The notes below the pieces were generated by a model that saw only the letters and a list, made by a program, of their open reading frames with translations, made no database searches and was not told where the DNA came from. From positions 1 through 59,029 of the forward strand of contig JALFBN010000008.1 of assembly GCA_022772085.1 (NCBI GenBank): a stretch of 59,029 nucleotides of DNA, given 5' to 3'. Each line of letters starts with the position of its first letter. The first letter of the stretch is position 1. A program made the position numbers and the translations under genes. Positions 29,578 through 40,408 of the stretch are shown piece by piece. The DNA comes from Porphyromonas sp. (lineage in GTDB: Bacteria; Bacteroidota; Bacteroidia; Bacteroidales; Porphyromonadaceae).

Positions 29578-32016
29578 TTAGAATTTATATGTATAACTGA
29601 TGGTGGGGATGATGGGGAAAATCGTGATCTGCCGAAGGACATTGATCCACTTACCATCCTTCTCTGCCATCCCCTTCTCGATAAGGAAAGGATTAAGCGC
29701 ACAATAGGCATTATAGATCGAGAGATTCCAAATACCCGTACGCCCCGATTTACGATACTTTCGGTAGAAGTTCAACCCCAAATCGAGGCGGTGCGTCGAA
29801 GGTAAACGGTAGTTGTTGCGTGACGATATATAGGGAATATCTAGAGGGAGCTTACCAAGAATCGGTCCATTTGGAGCATCTGATATGTTGTTATAAGATT
29901 GAAAATCAATCGTCGCCGTATTACCCGTACAATAGGTCCACGAAGCAGTTACATCGAATGCATCGCTAAACTTGTGCATCACCGTGATATTGAAGTCATG
30001 TATTCGGTCGTATTTTGCCGGGAATACCTCCCCTTCATTGAGTTCTTGCCCCGGGCGATTGAATTGGCGCAAAGAGCGAGACCAAGTGTAACCAACCCAC
30101 CCTGTTGTATTGCCGAACTGCTTCTGCCAAAGAAATTCCAAACCGTAGGCACGGCCATCACCCATCGCTACAAGATCTTCCCAACCTCGAGACTCCGCCA
30201 AAAATCCTGCACCATCTTTATACTCCAGCAGGTTATTCATCTTCTTATAATACCCTTCGATGGAGAAGTCTCCCCAATCGGGAAGGTGGTAAAATAGTCC
30301 GGCTGCCATCTGGTGCGAGGTCATCGGGGTAATGCGCTCTGTCGAGGGAACCCAGAGGTCCGTGGGGAGACTCACCAGATTGGCACTCAGCAGATGTATA
30401 TACTGCGACATCATGGCATACCCCATTTTGAATGAAAGTCTCTCGCCCAACATCACACGAGCACTGACACGAGGCTCTAATGAATGATAGGAGCGACCAC
30501 CAACAGCAAAGAGCGAATAGTGTAAACCCAAATTAGCTTTTAGGAAAGAGGCAATATCCCAGTCATCCTCAAAGAATAGGGTTGCCTCATGCGCAGGGAT
30601 ATTGGAAGCAACAAGTGTAGTATCCATGCGGATGGATTGGTCATTGATTTTACCCGATAGGTGAAAAGCACTGACATCGGGACGAAAGGTATGGAAGATG
30701 TATTCCGCACCTGCTTGTATGTTATGGTTGGGTGTAGGTTTGTAGTTAAGTTCGCTCCGTATGGCCAAATCTCGGACTCCCGAATTGTATGAGAAAGAAG
30801 CATATCCATCTGAAAAAGATCGCTCGGCAGCTGACAATTTGAGGTTGGACCGGTAGCGGTTAAACGAAACAGTTGAGTTAAGGAACATCTGTCCATTGAT
30901 CACATGATTCCACCTGAGGGCGGCAACGAGATTGCCCCAATCCCAATTCATCTTGCTACGTACGGAAAAATCTTTGGTCACATCGTCTAAAGCTCGCAGG
31001 GAGAAGCTCGCCACATCATCACCCATGTAGGCGGAGAGGAAAAGTTTGTCCCGATCGGAAACTTTGTGCGTCACCTTGAGGTTGAGGTCATAGAAGTTGT
31101 ATCCCGCACTTACTCGCTCGCTCATATTCTGCTTTTTTTGGACATACCACATGATCGGTCTAGTGATCAAGTCTAAATAGGTGCGTCGAGCCGAGATGTT
31201 AAAGGTCGTCTTGCCTTTAATGATTGGTCCCTCCACATTGATCCGGGAGGAGATCAAGCCGATGCTGGCCGTTCCGTGGTAATGCTGGTCGTCTCCATCT
31301 TTGGTGCGCACATCGATCACCGAAGATAGGCGACCTCCGAAGCGTGCAGGAAAGCTTCCCTTATATAAAGTTACATTTTTGATCGCATCTGAGTTGAAAT
31401 TGGAGAAGAATCCACCCAAGTGATTGACGTTATAGAGAGGGATCCCATCCATCATAATCAGATTTTGGTCAGGGCCTCCACCCCGCACATAAAGCCCAGA
31501 AGCCCCCTCCGTACCGCTCTGTACCCCGGGAAGCAATTGCAGGGCTTTGAGTACATCATTCTCGCCAAAGATGGCAGGCACACGCTTGATTTGCTCCGCA
31601 GGGATGGTCACGGCACTCATCTGCGTAGTCTGATTGTTGGAGGGATTGTAATGCCCCACAACGGTAACCTCACGAAGGGCTACGCCATCTTCAAGTGCAA
31701 AATTGATCATCGTATCAGCCGATAGATAGAAGGTGCGTTGCTCGGTTGCAAAGCCCATATAGGCACAAGTAAGATGTACTTCTCCCTCAGGGAGAGTCAA
31801 GGAGTAGCGTCCATAGTTGTCAGTCACAGTACCCTTGCCCGAACCTTGACTGATCAAAGTTGCTCCGATAAGCGTTTCTCCGCTTTTTGCTTCACTCACC
31901 ATACCGTGGATGGTGTACTTCTGTTGTGCGAGCGAACGCCCCACAGCTAAAGAGGCCAAAAGCCATAGGAAGAGACCACCCTTACGAGCGATCCAAAGAG
32001 TTTTTGTTGTGGTCAT
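29578..32016 (-). CDS. TonB-dependent outer-membrane receptor with N-terminal carboxypeptidase-regulatory-like domain
   Basis: Receptor of 812 residues. Signal peptide to about residue 30 (ending GRSLAQ), then a carboxypeptidase-regulatory-like beta-sandwich at 34-115 (YTIHGMVSEAKSGETLIGATLISQ), a plug domain at about 120-240 (GASGLYVRGGGPDQNLIMMDGIPLYNVNHLGGFFS), and a long barrel ending SYTYKF. The first domain marks the SusC-unlike group that pairs with DUF4249. Promoter TATCTTTGC at 32061-32053. A PepSY membrane protein is divergent, which points towards iron or siderophore uptake, but the substrate cannot be told from sequence. Confidence 0.88.
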   Translation of the reverse strand: MTTTKTLWIARKGGLFLWLLASLAVGRSLAQQKYTIHGMVSEAKSGETLIGATLISQGSGKGTVTDNYGRYSLTLPEGEVHLTCAYMGFATEQRTFYLSADTMINFALEDGVALREVTVVGHYNPSNNQTTQMSAVTIPAEQIKRVPAIFGENDVLKALQLLPGVQSGTEGASGLYVRGGGPDQNLIMMDGIPLYNVNHLGGFFSNFNSDAIKNVTLYKGSFPARFGGRLSSVIDVRTKDGDDQHYHGTASIGLISSRINVEGPIIKGKTTFNISARRTYLDLITRPIMWYVQKKQNMSERVSAGYNFYDLNLKVTHKVSDRDKLFLSAYMGDDVASFSLRALDDVTKDFSVRSKMNWDWGNLVAALRWNHVINGQMFLNSTVSFNRYRSNLKLSAAERSFSDGYASFSYNSGVRDLAIRSELNYKPTPNHNIQAGAEYIFHTFRPDVSAFHLSGKINDQSIRMDTTLVASNIPAHEATLFFEDDWDIASFLKANLGLHYSLFAVGGRSYHSLEPRVSARVMLGERLSFKMGYAMMSQYIHLLSANLVSLPTDLWVPSTERITPMTSHQMAAGLFYHLPDWGDFSIEGYYKKMNNLLEYKDGAGFLAESRGWEDLVAMGDGRAYGLEFLWQKQFGNTTGWVGYTWSRSLRQFNRPGQELNEGEVFPAKYDRIHDFNITVMHKFSDAFDVTASWTYCTGNTATIDFQSYNNISDAPNGPILGKLPLDIPYISSRNNYRLPSTHRLDLGLNFYRKYRKSGRTGIWNLSIYNAYCALNPFLIEKGMAEKDGKWINVLRQITIFPIIPTISYTYKF

Positions 32017-32203: not shown

Positions 32204-33355
32204 ATGACTAGAAAGCTATTCCGCACGCTCCATCTATGGCTATCCCTCCCCGTAGGGCTCATCATCTCTGCCATCTGTTTCTCGGGAGCAATGCTCATCT
32301 TTGAACGAGAAATAACCGAGATACTGCGCAATGATTTGTACTTCGTCTCCCCCGCAGAGAAGCCACTTCCTCTGGATCTCCTGCTTCAAAATTGCCAAAA
32401 AGAGCTCCCGGATAGTGTGGCAATCGTGGGCGTAGCAATATCTCAAAATCCCCGGCGAGCCTATCAGGTAAACCTCTCCAAACCTCATCGGGCTTCACTG
32501 TTTGTCGATCAGTACACGGGGGAGGTAAAGGGACGGTCTGAGCGCATCGCTTTTTTCGATACAATGAGCAGACTACACAGCAAGCTTCTGGCTCCAACAA
32601 AATCGAAAGGTTCCAAGACAGGTAAATTGGTCGTGGGTATCACAACGCTTCTCATGGTATTTATCCTCGTCTCAGGTATCATCGTATGGACTCCCCGCTC
32701 AATCAAAGGACTAAAAAAGAGTCTAAAAATTGAAGTTCGTAAGGGATGGAGACGACTTTGGTACAGCTTACATATAGCAGGTGGTGTCTACACGGCTTGC
32801 ATTCTTTTGGTCATGGCTCTTACGGGGCTTACGTGGTCTTTTTCGTGGTATCGCCAAGGCGTCTACGCGCTCTTCGGCATCAATGCTGAAGGTGATAGAG
32901 GCTCTAGGCATGGCATAAAAGAGGGAGCAAAGGAGACACCCCCTAAAAAGGAGAAGCGAGAGTCCTCTTCGGATTTTACCCATTGGCAAGCAGTGTTAGA
33001 CGAATTGGCGACAACACATAGTACTTACAAGCAAATCACAATCAATAAGGGTTTGGCTCGGATCAGTTATGACGGGATAGGTAACCAACGTGCCAGTGAT
33101 AACTACATTTTTGATGATAGCAACGGAACAATCTTGAGCGTGCAACCCTACGATGAACAGCCCGCTGTCGGAAAACTTCAAGGGTGGATCATGTCACTTC
33201 ACGTAGGCAATTGGGGTGGTATTTTGACGCGTATTTTAGCTTTCTTTGGCGCATTGCTTGGGGCAACCCTCCCACTCACAGGATATTACATGTGGATTGT
33301 TCGCAAACTTCCTCGTTGGCGCAAAAAGGGATTTAGGAGACAGAGGGCTATATAG
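32204..33355 (+). CDS. PepSY-associated membrane protein
   Basis: Inner-membrane protein of 383 residues of the PepSY_TM family, often iron-regulated and next to siderophore receptors, where some members act as ferric-siderophore reductases. Four membrane helices are seen: LWLSLPVGLIISAICFSGAMLIF near residues 10-33, LVVGITTLLMVFILVSGIIVW near 142-163, GGVYTACILLVMALTGLTWSF near 193-213, and ILAFFGALLGATLPLTGYYMWIV near 344-366. Periplasmic PepSY-like segments lie between helices 1 and 2 and between 3 and 4. Histidines inside or near helices (H10, H124, H191 and the SLHVGNWGG motif) could bind heme. It has its own promoter and terminator. Confidence 0.87.
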   Translation: MTRKLFRTLHLWLSLPVGLIISAICFSGAMLIFEREITEILRNDLYFVSPAEKPLPLDLLLQNCQKELPDSVAIVGVAISQNPRRAYQVNLSKPHRASLFVDQYTGEVKGRSERIAFFDTMSRLHSKLLAPTKSKGSKTGKLVVGITTLLMVFILVSGIIVWTPRSIKGLKKSLKIEVRKGWRRLWYSLHIAGGVYTACILLVMALTGLTWSFSWYRQGVYALFGINAEGDRGSRHGIKEGAKETPPKKEKRESSSDFTHWQAVLDELATTHSTYKQITINKGLARISYDGIGNQRASDNYIFDDSNGTILSVQPYDEQPAVGKLQGWIMSLHVGNWGGILTRILAFFGALLGATLPLTGYYMWIVRKLPRWRKKGFRRQRAI

Positions 33356-36130: not shown

Positions 36131-36175
36131 AGAAAAAGAGAGGAGAAAAAGGCATCAGCCCTCTCTCCTCTCCTT
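36131..36175 (-). terminator. Terminator after the His-rich lipoprotein gene
   Basis: On the minus strand GGAGAGGAGAGAGGGC pairs, with bulges, with GCC...CTCCTCTC around TGAT, followed by TTTTTC. It closes the receptor-lipoprotein-lipoprotein operon. Confidence 0.65.
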
Positions 36176-36204
36176 TAAGACCTAAGTATTACTACTAAGC
36201 AAAA

Positions 36205-37185
36205 TTACATATGATAGTGCTCTGCACCCTCTCCCTCTATAGGAGCATTCCAAGACTCTTCGTAGAGCTCATCCATTTTTTTACGATCAATTCCGAACTC
36301 AGCACAAAGATCCGTGAGGTAAGTATCTTCATCATCATCACCGGGAGATTGTGTGAAGACACGAATAGGGATCGTTAGTTCAAAGGCAGTCAATGCCGTG
36401 AAAGCATTATCCCATGCCAAAGCAGGGCGGTAGGCTCCATTATGCTTTTTGTCTGCAGGTGTTGCAAAGCGCACCATGCGGAGATGGAGGTCATAGGTTA
36501 GGTATCTTTCTTTAATCCCTATAAATGACTGTTCGGTAGCGGAATTGTGAAAATACCCTTTGAGACCTACACATTTACCCGAGAGTGTCACCTTGGGAGC
36601 TCCTGAGTGATGGTGACCATACATTCCGTCTTCGGGATTGGTATCTCGATAGACAAAAGGCGCACCAACCTCACCAAAAGTAGTTGTAACAGGCTCCCCT
36701 GCCGTTTTACTTCCGGGAGTGTACTTACGGAAGTTGTCCGCTGTGATGAAGAGCTGAAAGAGATCTTCCGCACCATTTTTTACAAAGTTATTGTTGATGC
36801 GTTCACCCTTTTTGTTGAGACAAACCATCTCTACAGACCAAATGATGTGAGACTTCCAACGCACAGGATTGTTGCCTTCGGCAATGCTGTAAGTCTTGCC
36901 ATCGGCATTGAGCTTGAAACTCACCTTCTGAACACCCTTATCGGGAAATTCAATATTACTGAACGAAGGATTGCCATGGAAGCTGGTGCCATGGAGGTGA
37001 CCTGCGTGCATTTCAATTGAGATCGTTGCAGGCATTTCGATCTTTTCCTCCGGAGGTGTTGGAATGTCGGGATTAACCGGATTAACCGGTTTGACAGGGA
37101 CTTTAGGTTGGTCTTTTTGACAACTCGATAACCCAAGCGTAAGTGCTGCAATAAAGGAACATGCAGCCAAAATTGTTTGTTTCAT
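36205..37185 (-). CDS. Histidine-rich lipoprotein, probable metal binding
   Basis: Lipoprotein of 326 residues, lipobox LSSC (C22), followed by a Pro-rich linker. Histidines cluster at H60, H63, H65 and H70 (HAGHLHGTSFH), at H191-H193 (YGHHHSG) and at the very C-terminus (AEHYHM). No catalytic motif or named family is recognised. The middle and end (GERINNNFVKNGAEDLFQLF; LKGYFHNSATEQ; FELTIPIRV) align with the lipoprotein encoded 27 bp upstream, so the two are paralogues and this one has gained the His segments. As part of an operon with a TonB-dependent receptor it probably captures a metal ion or metal complex at the cell surface (zinc, copper, nickel or cobalt); this is inference. Confidence 0.75.
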   Translation of the reverse strand: MKQTILAACSFIAALTLGLSSCQKDQPKVPVKPVNPVNPDIPTPPEEKIEMPATISIEMHAGHLHGTSFHGNPSFSNIEFPDKGVQKVSFKLNADGKTYSIAEGNNPVRWKSHIIWSVEMVCLNKKGERINNNFVKNGAEDLFQLFITADNFRKYTPGSKTAGEPVTTTFGEVGAPFVYRDTNPEDGMYGHHHSGAPKVTLSGKCVGLKGYFHNSATEQSFIGIKERYLTYDLHLRMVRFATPADKKHNGAYRPALAWDNAFTALTAFELTIPIRVFTQSPGDDDEDTYLTDLCAEFGIDRKKMDELYEESWNAPIEGEGAEHYHM

Positions 37186-37212
37186 TGCTAAAAGGAATAT
37201 TTTGGTTTACTA

Positions 37213-37893
37213 CTATTTCAATGTTACAGGAATATACAACTCCAAATCGCGCGTACCCATGGTACGACTTGGCTTGTCAAAAGGATAAAAGGTATTCTCC
37301 TTACGATTGATTTTGGTGGCAGGGGGCAATACGTGTACCAGAATTATATTCAAAAAGAACTGATCGGGCGTAGCACTATCGAGTACCTGAAAAGCTCCAT
37401 CAAAACCGATGGGATTACGTTTTCCCTCCAACATCAAGGTTTCGGCATACTTATAAACTATATTACTTTCAATTGTGCGGTAGACCTTTTTATTATCCTC
37501 TTTGAGAACCTTGGAGATGAGAAAGAATTGATGTAGGAGAGCCTGCTCCGGGGTTACGTACTGATCATTGATGCTTTCGCCGGCAAAATTTTTGAGAACG
37601 ACTTGCAGATGATACCATGTACCTCGCTTGAGTGCAATGGGTTCATGATTGGGCTTTTCGTTGGAGAAGGTCCATGTGAAGGACTCTCCCTTATCGATAA
37701 TCTTATCGACAAACATACCGCCGGTACCCTCTACTTGGCAAGGTGTAAAGATAAAATCCGTGCTGTAAGGCATGTCATGTCCACGCTCCTCCGCCTGATT
37801 GATAGGCTTTTCGGGGGTGATTTTTTTGCACGCTCCGAGCATCGTAAGCACGATGAGCAGTGCAAGACCGGTACATAATTGTAGCTTCTTCAT
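37213..37893 (-). CDS. Lipoprotein related to its His-rich neighbour
   Basis: Lipoprotein of 226 residues, lipobox MLGAC near residue 22. The ATG at 37893 is used; the frame reaches a TTG at 37929 that overlaps the receptor gene. It shares with the next gene the blocks GESINDQYVTPEQALLHQFF, IGFDGAFQVLDSATPDQFF and a closing DLELYIPVTL, in the same order and near the same spacing. No known domain name can be given with certainty. It sits 32 bp after the receptor gene and 27 bp before the His-rich gene, so it should be cotranscribed and act with both on the cell surface. Confidence 0.75.
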   Translation of the reverse strand: MKKLQLCTGLALLIVLTMLGACKKITPEKPINQAEERGHDMPYSTDFIFTPCQVEGTGGMFVDKIIDKGESFTWTFSNEKPNHEPIALKRGTWYHLQVVLKNFAGESINDQYVTPEQALLHQFFLISKVLKEDNKKVYRTIESNIVYKYAETLMLEGKRNPIGFDGAFQVLDSATPDQFFLNIILVHVLPPATKINRKENTFYPFDKPSRTMGTRDLELYIPVTLK

Positions 37894-37925
37894 TTCTTTG
37901 TTGTTTCTATTTTTTGTGTTACTAA

Positions 37926-40271
37926 TCAAAAGTAGTAGCCCACGAGGAGTTGTACATCTCTCCCCTTTTCATGGGCAAAGTATCGGAAGCGATTGGTGTA
38001 CTCCTTGTAGAGGTGATTCAGTAGATTGGTCGATCGCAACGTGACCTCCAACGATTCGCCTTGGCGAAAGGTGTGTTTGTACGAAAGTGAAGCACCCAAC
38101 AGATGATATGCCTTGGGCGTCTCGGGCAAAAAATCAATCTCGGGGGAGAAGCGTTTTTGCTGTGTGACATACAACCAATTGACCCCGACAGAGAAGCAGT
38201 TCGCACCCTCCCCCTCATGGCTCTGCCACTCCAGCGACTGGCGATAACGATCTGATGGAATGTAGGGGAAGTAGCCCCCTGTCTTACGATCGACTGCACG
38301 GATCCATTGCCCCTCTAGCGAATAGCGCCACCCCTTGAGGGGACGCCACTGCATCTGCAAGTCACCGCCCCAAAAGCGAGCATCAGCCTGCTGATAGCGA
38401 AATACAGGGAAGACCCCGGCGACCAACTCCTTAACCGCAATCCCTCCCGTTGAGGGATCGTGTTGCGGACAGGCATAGATATAATTTCCAATAGTTTGTA
38501 CGAAGGCAGTAGCCGTAACCTGAATCCAAGAATTGGCATAACGTATTTCATTATTCCACTTCCATGAGGCTTCGGGTCGTAGCGAGGCATCACCCTCTTC
38601 ATAGGCGGCTGCCCCGTGGTGTAATCCGTTGCTATAAAGTTCATTGACATCGGGAGCACGCCAAGCCAAACCAAGATTGGACGAAATGGAAACACCCTGC
38701 CAGGGGCGAAGCATCCCCGAGAGAGAAAAAGAGGGACTATTGTAATGCTGCTCTCCACCATACTCTTTTCCTGAGAAGTCATATCCCAACGCATTGAGAT
38801 ATTTATAGTCATAACGACCTCCAAAAGCTACCTCAGCCGACCGCGCAACCCACTTGGCAATGCCATAGAATCCCGACGTAAAAGAGGCATAATTGGGAAT
38901 CAACGGCACGGTGCCCGTATTGGTAGTTTTATTTTGTTGCAACAGAGAACTTGACCCTACAATGAACTGAAATGGATTCTTTTTGCATGATTCCCACGTC
39001 ACCTGTGCTCCATGACTTGCAAGGAGCAGCCCCAAAGCAGGCTTATCAGCATATTTGCCGACACGGATTTCGTACTCCCGACGATCATCGTTTTGGAAAT
39101 CATATTGCAACTTCCAGAGGCTTCCCCCCACTCCCCTATACTCACCTCTCAGGCGTACCAAAGCGTGTTTTACCTCCTGCCGAGGGGCGGCAATTGCATA
39201 TCCTCGAGGGGCAAAATCTTGCGGTTCTCCCAATTCAAAGCGGTCTAAAAGATCTTCGAGTGTACCGATATGCGAACCGGTAAAAACACCTAAAGTCGCA
39301 TCATAATAACTCACAAAAAGACTCGATGCAAAGCGAGGGCGGTCAATCCCAATCACTCCCGTAAAGCTTCCCTCTCGAGTACCCGTATTATTCAGTACAT
39401 ATTTGGCAGTGGAGTAATCTCCCGACAAGCCATAAGAGGCTTGAGTACGCCAGCGAATACTCGGCATTGCAGAGATACTACCCGAGAGATCACCATCAAC
39501 CCCCATACCCAAGTCGTTGGATGTGGCTTGCAGCTGCAGGTGCCCTTTGACCTGCTCTGCCTCCAAGGGGAGGGTTGCCGTCTCCAAAAGAATTACACCT
39601 CCAATAGCTCCGGCTCCGTAACGGATGGACTCTGCTCCCTTAATGACCTCCAGACTCGTAGCACTAGAGACATCGATCTCGGGTGCATGATCACTGCCCC
39701 ACTGCTGCCCCTCTTGCCGTACTCCATTATTGATCAAGAGGATACGACTGCTGTGCATTCCTTGGATTACGGGCTTCATAATGGTAGCACCACTGCTGAT
39801 GCTACTCATCCCGGGCACCTCTTGAAGCACTTGAGCCAGTGAACTTTTGACCTCTCGACGGAGGGCATTCTCACCTAATCGTACAGCAATAGTCGTCGCA
39901 TCACTCTTGGGTTTATCGCCCACGACAAGCACCTCTCCTAAACTTTTAGGCACAAGATGTAGACATAATACTCGATCTTGTGGGGTAACCGTACACGTAC
40001 AATCGTTGTACCCTACCATGCGGATCTGCAATTCGCCCTTACGTTTAGGAGCGGACAGGATGGCTTTTCCCTCTGAGTTAGAGAGTACCCTTTCCCCGGC
40101 CCATTCGACCCGAGCCCCGGGAATCGGTTCTTCAGTACCCTCCTCCAAAATCGTGACGATAAGCTTAGGGCTCACCCCTTGAGCTTTTGAAACTATAGGG
40201 ACGGAAAAACCGAATATAATCAGTACAAGGAAAAGGGGAAAGAGATGGTTATTGCGTTTTATTGTGTGCAT
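37926..40271 (-). CDS. TonB-dependent outer-membrane receptor, possible metal transporter
   Basis: Receptor of 781 residues. Signal peptide to about residue 30, a carboxypeptidase-regulatory-like domain at 36-110 (ILEEGTEEPIPGARVEWAG), a plug at about 125-240 and a barrel ending QLLVGYYF. In the plug, VRQEGQQWGSDHAPEID at about 184-200 holds an SDHA stretch that recalls the PDHA motif of ZnuD-type zinc receptors. Together with the His-rich lipoprotein downstream this suggests a metal ion or metal complex as substrate (inference). Heme cannot be excluded. First gene of a three-gene operon; promoter at 40368-40360 with a palindromic operator candidate just upstream. Confidence 0.85.
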   Translation of the reverse strand: MHTIKRNNHLFPLFLVLIIFGFSVPIVSKAQGVSPKLIVTILEEGTEEPIPGARVEWAGERVLSNSEGKAILSAPKRKGELQIRMVGYNDCTCTVTPQDRVLCLHLVPKSLGEVLVVGDKPKSDATTIAVRLGENALRREVKSSLAQVLQEVPGMSSISSGATIMKPVIQGMHSSRILLINNGVRQEGQQWGSDHAPEIDVSSATSLEVIKGAESIRYGAGAIGGVILLETATLPLEAEQVKGHLQLQATSNDLGMGVDGDLSGSISAMPSIRWRTQASYGLSGDYSTAKYVLNNTGTREGSFTGVIGIDRPRFASSLFVSYYDATLGVFTGSHIGTLEDLLDRFELGEPQDFAPRGYAIAAPRQEVKHALVRLRGEYRGVGGSLWKLQYDFQNDDRREYEIRVGKYADKPALGLLLASHGAQVTWESCKKNPFQFIVGSSSLLQQNKTTNTGTVPLIPNYASFTSGFYGIAKWVARSAEVAFGGRYDYKYLNALGYDFSGKEYGGEQHYNSPSFSLSGMLRPWQGVSISSNLGLAWRAPDVNELYSNGLHHGAAAYEEGDASLRPEASWKWNNEIRYANSWIQVTATAFVQTIGNYIYACPQHDPSTGGIAVKELVAGVFPVFRYQQADARFWGGDLQMQWRPLKGWRYSLEGQWIRAVDRKTGGYFPYIPSDRYRQSLEWQSHEGEGANCFSVGVNWLYVTQQKRFSPEIDFLPETPKAYHLLGASLSYKHTFRQGESLEVTLRSTNLLNHLYKEYTNRFRYFAHEKGRDVQLLVGYYF

Positions 40272-40359
40272 AAGCGAGAAGTGGCATCTCCGATGCTAAA
40301 AATCAATCTATCGAACTAGTTATCAATTATATTACGTAGCTATCTAATTCAAACTAAGT

Positions 40360-40368
40360 ACAAAGATA
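40360..40368 (-). promoter_or_regulatory. -7 box of the receptor-lipoprotein operon
   Basis: TATCTTTGT on the minus strand, 88 bp before the ATG at 40271. No TTTG at normal -33 spacing; a palindrome occupies that place. Confidence 0.55.
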
Positions 40369-40380
40369 AGTCTTTATTTT

Positions 40381-40408
40381 GGACTAAGTCCTATTTGAGA
40401 CAAAGTCC
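40381..40408. promoter_or_regulatory. Palindromic operator candidate
   Basis: GGACTAAGTCC at 40381-40391 is a near-perfect palindrome. A second half-site, AAAGTCC, follows at 40402-40408, so AGGACTT occurs twice in the same direction on the minus strand. The site lies 12 bp upstream of the -7 box, where the -33 element should be, suitable for a regulator that replaces or blocks it. Confidence 0.4.

Follow-up and report, generated by a model that had tools for sequence, protein, structure and literature searches.

The locus described here raises the question of what a TonB-dependent outer-membrane receptor does in the company of two lipoproteins encoded directly downstream of it. The locus lies on a 59,029-nucleotide stretch of a Porphyromonas sp. 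genome of 2,056,487 bases (contig JALFBN010000008.1; this whole stretch is called the window below). A first-pass annotation of the window had proposed the three genes as a candidate new metal-uptake system, in which two paralogous lipoproteins would hand over a metal or metal complex to the receptor in two steps, one copy having gained a metal site.

The operon and its receptor

The three genes follow one another on the minus strand (Table 1), with 32 bases between the receptor and Lp1 and 27 between Lp1 and Lp2. The mechanically called Lp1 frame (37929-37213) begins with TTG, and the ATG at 37893 is the likelier start. The outer bound first given to the region, 40408, takes in the promoter region. 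At the other end, a hairpin 3' of Lp2 has the longest stem among the ten terminator-like sites of the region (shuffle mean 4.4) and, judging by its sequence, is the probable end of the operon. The next gene (36018-33559), which has a type IX sorting-domain match below threshold, therefore probably lies outside it. No common metal theme was found among the genes flanking the operon (10 proteins scanned from seven loci).

Table 1. Features of the receptor-lipoprotein operon, with positions in the window.
Feature	Position	Strand	Basis or conservation
Three-gene operon	receptor 40271-37926 / Lp1 37893-37213 / Lp2 37185-36205	-	ORFs
Palindrome GGACTTAGTCC, candidate operator	40381..40391	-	same place in P. 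endodontalis
Box TATCTTTG, inferred promoter	40361..40368	-	sequence; conserved in L079
TonB-dependent receptor, ZnuD/OprC-like, 781 aa	37926..40271	-	Pfam, NCBIfam, solved-structure profile search
Plug motif GSDHAPEID, residues 192-200; candidate metal ligands D194/H195	39672..39698	-	alignment to ZnuD
Lp1, first lipoprotein, 226 aa from ATG, site B only	37213..37893	-	lipobox LGAC
Lp1 His121 (site B)	37531..37533	-	H in 39/39 single and 37/37 first copies
Lp1 His187 (site B)	37333..37335	-	H in 38/39 single and 37/37 first copies
Lp1 Asp216 (site B)	37246..37248	-	D in 38/39 single and 37/37 first copies; 0/37 second copies (3 Glu)
Lp2, second lipoprotein, 326 aa, site A and extra His loop	36205..37185	-	lipobox SSC
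Lp2 GHLHGTSFH, residues 62-70; His63/His65/His70 = site A	36976..37002	-	His63 in 35/37, His65 and His70 in 37/37 second copies
Lp2 His191-193, His loop of variable length	36607..36615	-	sequence and relatives
Terminator-like hairpin, 18 pairs	36134..36176	-	3' of Lp2

Both the plug and the barrel domain of the receptor exceed their Pfam cut-offs. When the profile of the receptor family was searched against solved structures, the zinc receptor ZnuD of Neisseria came first (E 1.2e-29) and the copper receptor OprC of Pseudomonas second (E 4.2e-21), the best-scoring stretch of the latter covering the plug. The first-pass annotation had remarked that the plug motif recalls ZnuD, and the alignment bears this out: GSDHAPEID stands opposite SPDHAIMVD of ZnuD, with D194-H195 facing the Asp-His of the zinc site. 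In the accessible text of PMC4557270, the high-affinity site of ZnuD is written D90/H100/E340/H499; the number of the Asp is unsettled, since in the alignment the residue immediately preceding the presumed H100 is an Asp. H499 would fall on H551 of the window receptor if the numbering offset is constant, at a position that is variable in the family (the region reads LHHG in the window versus NELG in Bacteroides and many Prevotella-type receptors), and E340 lies outside the aligned parts. His195 is conserved in 77 of 79 receptors, and all 79 have His369 and His767. When named genomes were scanned, the closest receptor came from Porphyromonas endodontalis (71% identity).

Three named NCBIfam assignments were tried for the receptor and rejected: ZnuD by NF038289 (82 bits, E 3.9e-23, against a cut-off of 950 bits), OprC/TonB-copper by TIGR01778 (58.5 bits against 472), and haem/haemoglobin receptor by TIGR01785 (133 bits against 316.85).

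ZnuD carries His/Asp-rich capture stretches in its own loops (accessible text of PMC4557270), whereas here the His-rich loop is on the partner lipoprotein Lp2. The window receptor has at most two His in any 12 residues, and 13 of the 79 receptors, a set that includes it, have four or more. As to OprC, the CxxxM that forms part of its copper site has no counterpart in the window receptor, the aligned plug stretch of which contains neither Cys nor Met, and the accessible text of PMC8610252 names no lipoprotein partner for OprC.

Two related lipoproteins and two candidate sites

Lp1 and Lp2 had been called paralogous on the strength of common blocks (GESIN...LLHQFF and LELYIPV in Lp1, GERIN...LFQLF and FELTIPI in Lp2), and profile-profile comparison confirms the relationship. 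Two alignments of 14 sequences each, with no shared rows, matched with Prob 100 and E 1.8e-39; the E-value was 6.7e-33 on mature parts, with signal peptides removed, and mature parts of the window clade alone (five against five) still gave Prob 96.7 and E 3.3e-10. Likewise, across 38 family genomes an Lp1 query matches Lp2 relatives and vice versa. The genome of the window has nine matches to the receptor, but Lp1 and Lp2 are matched only once each, within the operon.

Neither lipoprotein could be assigned to a named family: no Pfam or NCBIfam model exceeded its cut-off for Lp1, Lp2, or their scanned relatives (12 for Pfam, 11 for NCBIfam). The AlphaFold2 models are confident, with a mean pLDDT of 91.7 for Lp1, which is mainly strands, and of 86.2 for Lp2, made of strands and C-terminal helices. 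Profile searches of the PDB with both proteins returned weak matches only, mostly at the signal-peptide end. Foldseek and VIA-align, in a comparison that for Lp1 took in RhoGDI-like/NPC2-like beta-sandwiches, gave common beta-sandwich arrangements and no convincing fold relative, an absence that in such searches proves nothing. In 85 of 107 lipoproteins, counted without a control set, there are acidic residues at positions +2 to +5 relative to the lipid Cys; they recall a published lipoprotein export signal (accessible text of PMC5080379); an exact match to that signal is absent from window Lp1 (CKKITPE) and Lp2 (CQKDQPK).

As the first-pass annotation had observed, only the second lipoprotein has His clusters, of which there are three (GHLHGTSFH, GHHHSG, and EHYHM) against none in Lp1. 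The His loop has grown to HHHGDHDHDHGDHDHDHGDH in P. gingivicanis (L077), with ten His in 20 residues. From aligned residues we defined two candidate metal sites, A (HxH...H) and B (His-His-Asp), and followed them through 114 lipoprotein domains, classed by gene order alone as 39 single, 37 first, and 38 later copies.

The claim that the second copy alone has a candidate metal site is not supported by this census: single and first copies almost always have the three site B residues of Lp1, two isolated His and an Asp. Site B is complete in 38/39 single and 37/37 first copies (75/76 together). In second copies H121 is found in 4/37 and H187 in 3/37; when the third copy is included and Asp or Glu counted, 33 of the 38 later copies have no site B residue, two keep one, and three (L086, L133, and L151) have H/H/E. 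Site A behaves in the opposite way: it is complete in 36/38 later copies, and His63, His65, and His70 are present in only 4, 3, and 2 of the 37 first copies, 32 of which combine site B with no His of site A. Full A with no B is the state of 31/38 later copies, and both sites occur together in just two first copies, those of Olivibacter (L088 and L094).

In the single copies, His63, His65, and His70 occur in 23, 33, and 32 of the 39; full A and B are carried by 21, and ten more have full B with two of the three His of A. These proteins speak against the gain of a metal site by one copy. Judged from the aligned residues, it is likelier that the first copy kept B and the second kept A after duplication, so that two old sites were divided rather than one gained. 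A single ancestral protein carrying both sites is likely on the same grounds; it is not proven, because in the single copies A (21/39) is less complete than B. The earlier observation was thus correct and wider than a single operon could reveal, its reading as a gain of a site being probably the wrong way round.

A tree holding 36 first-copy-type rows as one clade was rejected (p-AU 1.7e-5), a value not to be taken at face value because the group was named after seeing the tree, the site columns were kept in, and a long-branch warning was raised. The group consisted of first copies, fused N-halves, window Lp1, and the lone copy of L123, with L088 and L094 left out as having both sites. From the rejection it follows that the division apparently took place more than once. 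In Capnocytophaga the genus's own two copies cluster, with support of just 87/90.

One could suppose that these residues have a structural role or mediate receptor contact, the lipoproteins acting as lids on the receptor without binding metal. Linkage to the receptor alone would look no different, and the fold searches yielded nothing beyond common beta-sandwich arrangements. However, all three site B residues are lost jointly in 33 of the 38 later copies, while the neighbouring Tyr149 and Asp151 do not follow the A/B division and are kept in 37/37 second copies; a purely structural role is disfavoured because it should not track duplication so cleanly, and we give the lid explanation little credence.

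A second alternative is that the lipoproteins bind a metal complex (haem, a metallophore, or a host metal protein), the His sites recognising the complex. Receptors paired with a capture lipoprotein exist in the same phylum: HmuR-HmuY is one such pair, and the cargo of HmuY is haem. XusA-XusB shows the same division of labour and acts on a siderophore complex (accessible text of PMC12574912). The haem receptor subfamily rejected above also gives the receptor its best NCBIfam score. However, ZnuD itself was first misannotated as a haem transporter owing to shared motifs (accessible text of PMC4557270), the His-His-Asp and HxH...H residues are of a kind suited to bare ions, and no match to a haem-carrier family was found in Pfam for the window proteins and the scanned relatives. 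Nor did we find a relation in Pfam or NCBIfam between XusB or HmuY and Lp1/Lp2. We regard a complex as cargo as decidedly improbable.

Linkage across the phylum and the leader ORF

The receptor scan of named genomes, taken to the best 80 of 160 relatives, gave 79 loci, or 78 after L143, in which the receptor ORF was not found, was dropped. The first-pass annotation proposed a search for joint occurrence of the lipoproteins with the receptor, and such linkage was found: a member of the lipoprotein family lies directly downstream of the receptor in 75/78 of these loci, although the receptor query alignment was built from loci found via the lipoproteins, which favours linkage within Porphyromonas. 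In 74 of them the lipoprotein lies within about 5 kb of the receptor, and L142 was added because the start of its ORF overlaps the receptor; the receptor has no adjoining member of the family in L091, L110, and L125. The loci cover Porphyromonas, Capnocytophaga, Bacteroides, Phocaeicola, Prevotella and relatives, Pedobacter, Olivibacter, Rufibacter, and others, with intergenic gaps mostly below 100 bases.

Several loci depart from this arrangement. In the Porphyromonas family, a fused double lipoprotein comes directly after the leader ORF in L063 (6061-8310) and L073 (5670-7845), without an intervening receptor gene. In the same family G006, G008, and G009 retain an Lp1-like gene on its own, the receptor query finding nothing in them at E 1e-20, and three related genomes encode a single Lp1-like lipoprotein that is likewise without a close receptor (L068:5905-6567, L070:6354-7016, and L071:5812-6471), that of L068 adjoining a yedF-like gene. 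The operon is enlarged in L124, L138, L141, L145, and L149, where the lipoproteins are long (420-522 aa) and additional ones are present; in L124 and L138 one extra lipoprotein each matches DUF4876. Two 208-aa ORFs of L133 (15510-16136 and 17351-17977) have the same start and score 74 bits each as partial Lp2 relatives; they are perhaps duplicated fragments. A Bacteroidota-type operon on a contig filed under Desulfitobacteriaceae (L140) probably reflects mis-binning. Finally, the leader and lipoprotein genes of Bacteroides xylanisolvens (L107) and Phocaeicola vulgatus (L108) are nearly identical and an integrase lies just downstream in L107, which suggests recent transfer.

The leader ORF is a further recurrent element. 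In 56 of the 78 loci an ORF with a Cys and a RAPP-like end precedes the receptor, as against 12 of 2454 control windows taken from the same loci. The test called for an ORF ending in [RKHN][AGSF]PP, a motif wider than RAPP, with a Cys 44-51 residues before it, and misses some true leaders, such as that of L107, which was seen otherwise. The version with CxxC is found in 37/78 loci against 2/2454 control windows, 19 of the 56 leaders failing this narrower test; where both motifs are found, 43-47 residues separate them. Pfam DUF2946 (PF11162) was not matched above its cut-off of 23.7 bits by any of seven leaders scanned: two reached 15.0 and 12.9 bits (E 0.044 and 0.2), and the other five were unmatched.

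These leaders share the Cys, the RAPP-like end, and the spacing with CruR of Bordetella, which heads a receptor operon and in which CXXC senses copper, RAPP is needed for arrest, and the spacing is 45 residues (accessible text of PMC9426467). Unlike the CruR/DUF2946 leader, they fall below the Pfam cut-off, have variant motifs, and are absent from the window lineage. The variants include HSPP, HAPP, NSPP, KAPP, and KGPP, Prevotella-type leaders ending in HSPP/HAPP/NSPP and Sphingobacteria-type leaders in KGPP/KAPP/RGPP; leaders with variant ends are those of L104, L109-L112, L114-L115, L117, L119-L122, L127-L129, and others. According to the accessible text of PMC12992588, RAPP/RGPP leaders before receptor genes are widespread in Gram-negative bacteria, and copper-related ones are missing in Bacteroidota. 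The class of leader is therefore not new. A RAPP/RGPP scan would miss most Prevotella- and Sphingobacteria-type leaders because of their HSPP, HAPP, NSPP, KGPP, and KAPP ends, and what may be new is the tie of the class to this receptor-lipoprotein operon, together with the H/K/N variants of the motif.

The leaders provide an argument for copper as cargo of the same anatomy, in which the leader would sense copper as an arrest peptide of CruR type and the receptor would import copper as OprC does. The Cys and RAPP-like motif, their CruR-like spacing, and the rank of OprC as second-best solved relative agree with it. However, a third of the leaders (19/56) lack CxxC by our test and the window has no leader at all, CutF-like leaders are not necessarily copper-specific (accessible text of PMC9973294), and the CxxxM plug ligands of OprC are unmatched in the window. 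Furthermore, the 38 family genomes have few copper enzymes by the two families searched, Cu-oxidase_2 being found in 0/38 and COX1 in 4/38, none of them the window's own genome. The four COX1 matches, frames of 750-758 aa, are presumably nitric oxide reductases, and copper demand looks low in these genomes. We consider copper unlikely.

In the window no leader ORF was found in any frame of the 450 bases upstream to the next gene, and none was found in P. endodontalis, P. circumdentaria, P. gingivicanis, and P. crevioricanis. Upstream of the window receptor stands the palindrome of Table 1, a candidate operator, and P. endodontalis (L079) has GGACTAAGTCC at this place; beside it lies the conserved box TATCTTTG, which we take to be a -7 box of Bacteroidota type. 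The consensus GGACTWWGTCC occurs at five sites in the genome, with four forward and three reverse matches against one and two for the reversed control. A regulon is not shown by these sites: of the other four, the one inspected lies inside a 973-aa ORF, presumably uvrA.

A possible protein relay for zinc

Taking the receptor, the sites, and the linkage together, we think it moderately probable that the operon takes up a divalent metal, most likely zinc, without a metallophore, by way of capture by Lp2 and Lp1 and a ZnuD-like receptor. At the cell surface, Lp2 would pick up the metal with site A and the variable His loop, and Lp1 would hold the ion at site B. One or both lipoproteins would then pass it to Asp194-His195 of the receptor plug, where it would be bound as in ZnuD; TonB energy would drive it into the periplasm, from which an inner-membrane ZIP transporter would take it in. 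In species with a single copy, one protein would do both capture and transfer. The two-step hand-over of the first-pass annotation thus stands as a possibility, its order being something that we infer, as are metal binding, surface location, and the identity of the metal.

A wider and more tentative reading, which we hold to be possible though not the more probable outcome, is that of a phylum-wide family of two-site surface metal carriers, repeatedly split into capture (A) and transfer (B) proteins, that serve a ZnuD-like receptor under a CruR-type nascent-chain sensor in most lineages and a promoter operator in the window lineage.

With moderate confidence we rank zinc first, before copper, because of the ZnuD-like plug, the His/Asp ligands, the presence of a ZIP transporter in the window's own genome, and the little sign of copper enzymes. 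Against zinc stand the leader ORF, which resembles a copper sensor and not a known zinc sensor, and the inconstancy of the H499 region of ZnuD in related receptors. ZnuA was not found in the window's own genome or in G003, G004, G005, and G007, its nearest operon-bearing relatives. ZnuA and ZIP do not track the operon: one or the other is present in the operon-bearing family genomes except G004, and also in 13/15 without the operon.

The first-pass annotation knew of no described system of this make-up. This holds for the lipoproteins, no paper on the Lp1/Lp2 family having been found in the open-licence literature searched, but not for the make-up as such, which resembles that of Xus. In the literature searched, the passage of zinc or copper across the outer membrane of mouth and gut Bacteroidota is little described. 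If the proposed uptake is right, the operon would offer a defined gene set, two exact sets of residues, and proteins that occur naturally in single, split, and fused form for the study of a metal relay, and would connect nascent-chain metal sensing of the CruR type with an operon of Bacteroidota; if the family of two-site carriers is real as well, it would represent a protein-only zinc relay outside the cell.

The window contains a second TonB-dependent receptor gene (29578-32016, minus strand) beside a divergent gene for a PepSY-type membrane protein (32204-33355, plus strand), the two probably forming a separate uptake locus.
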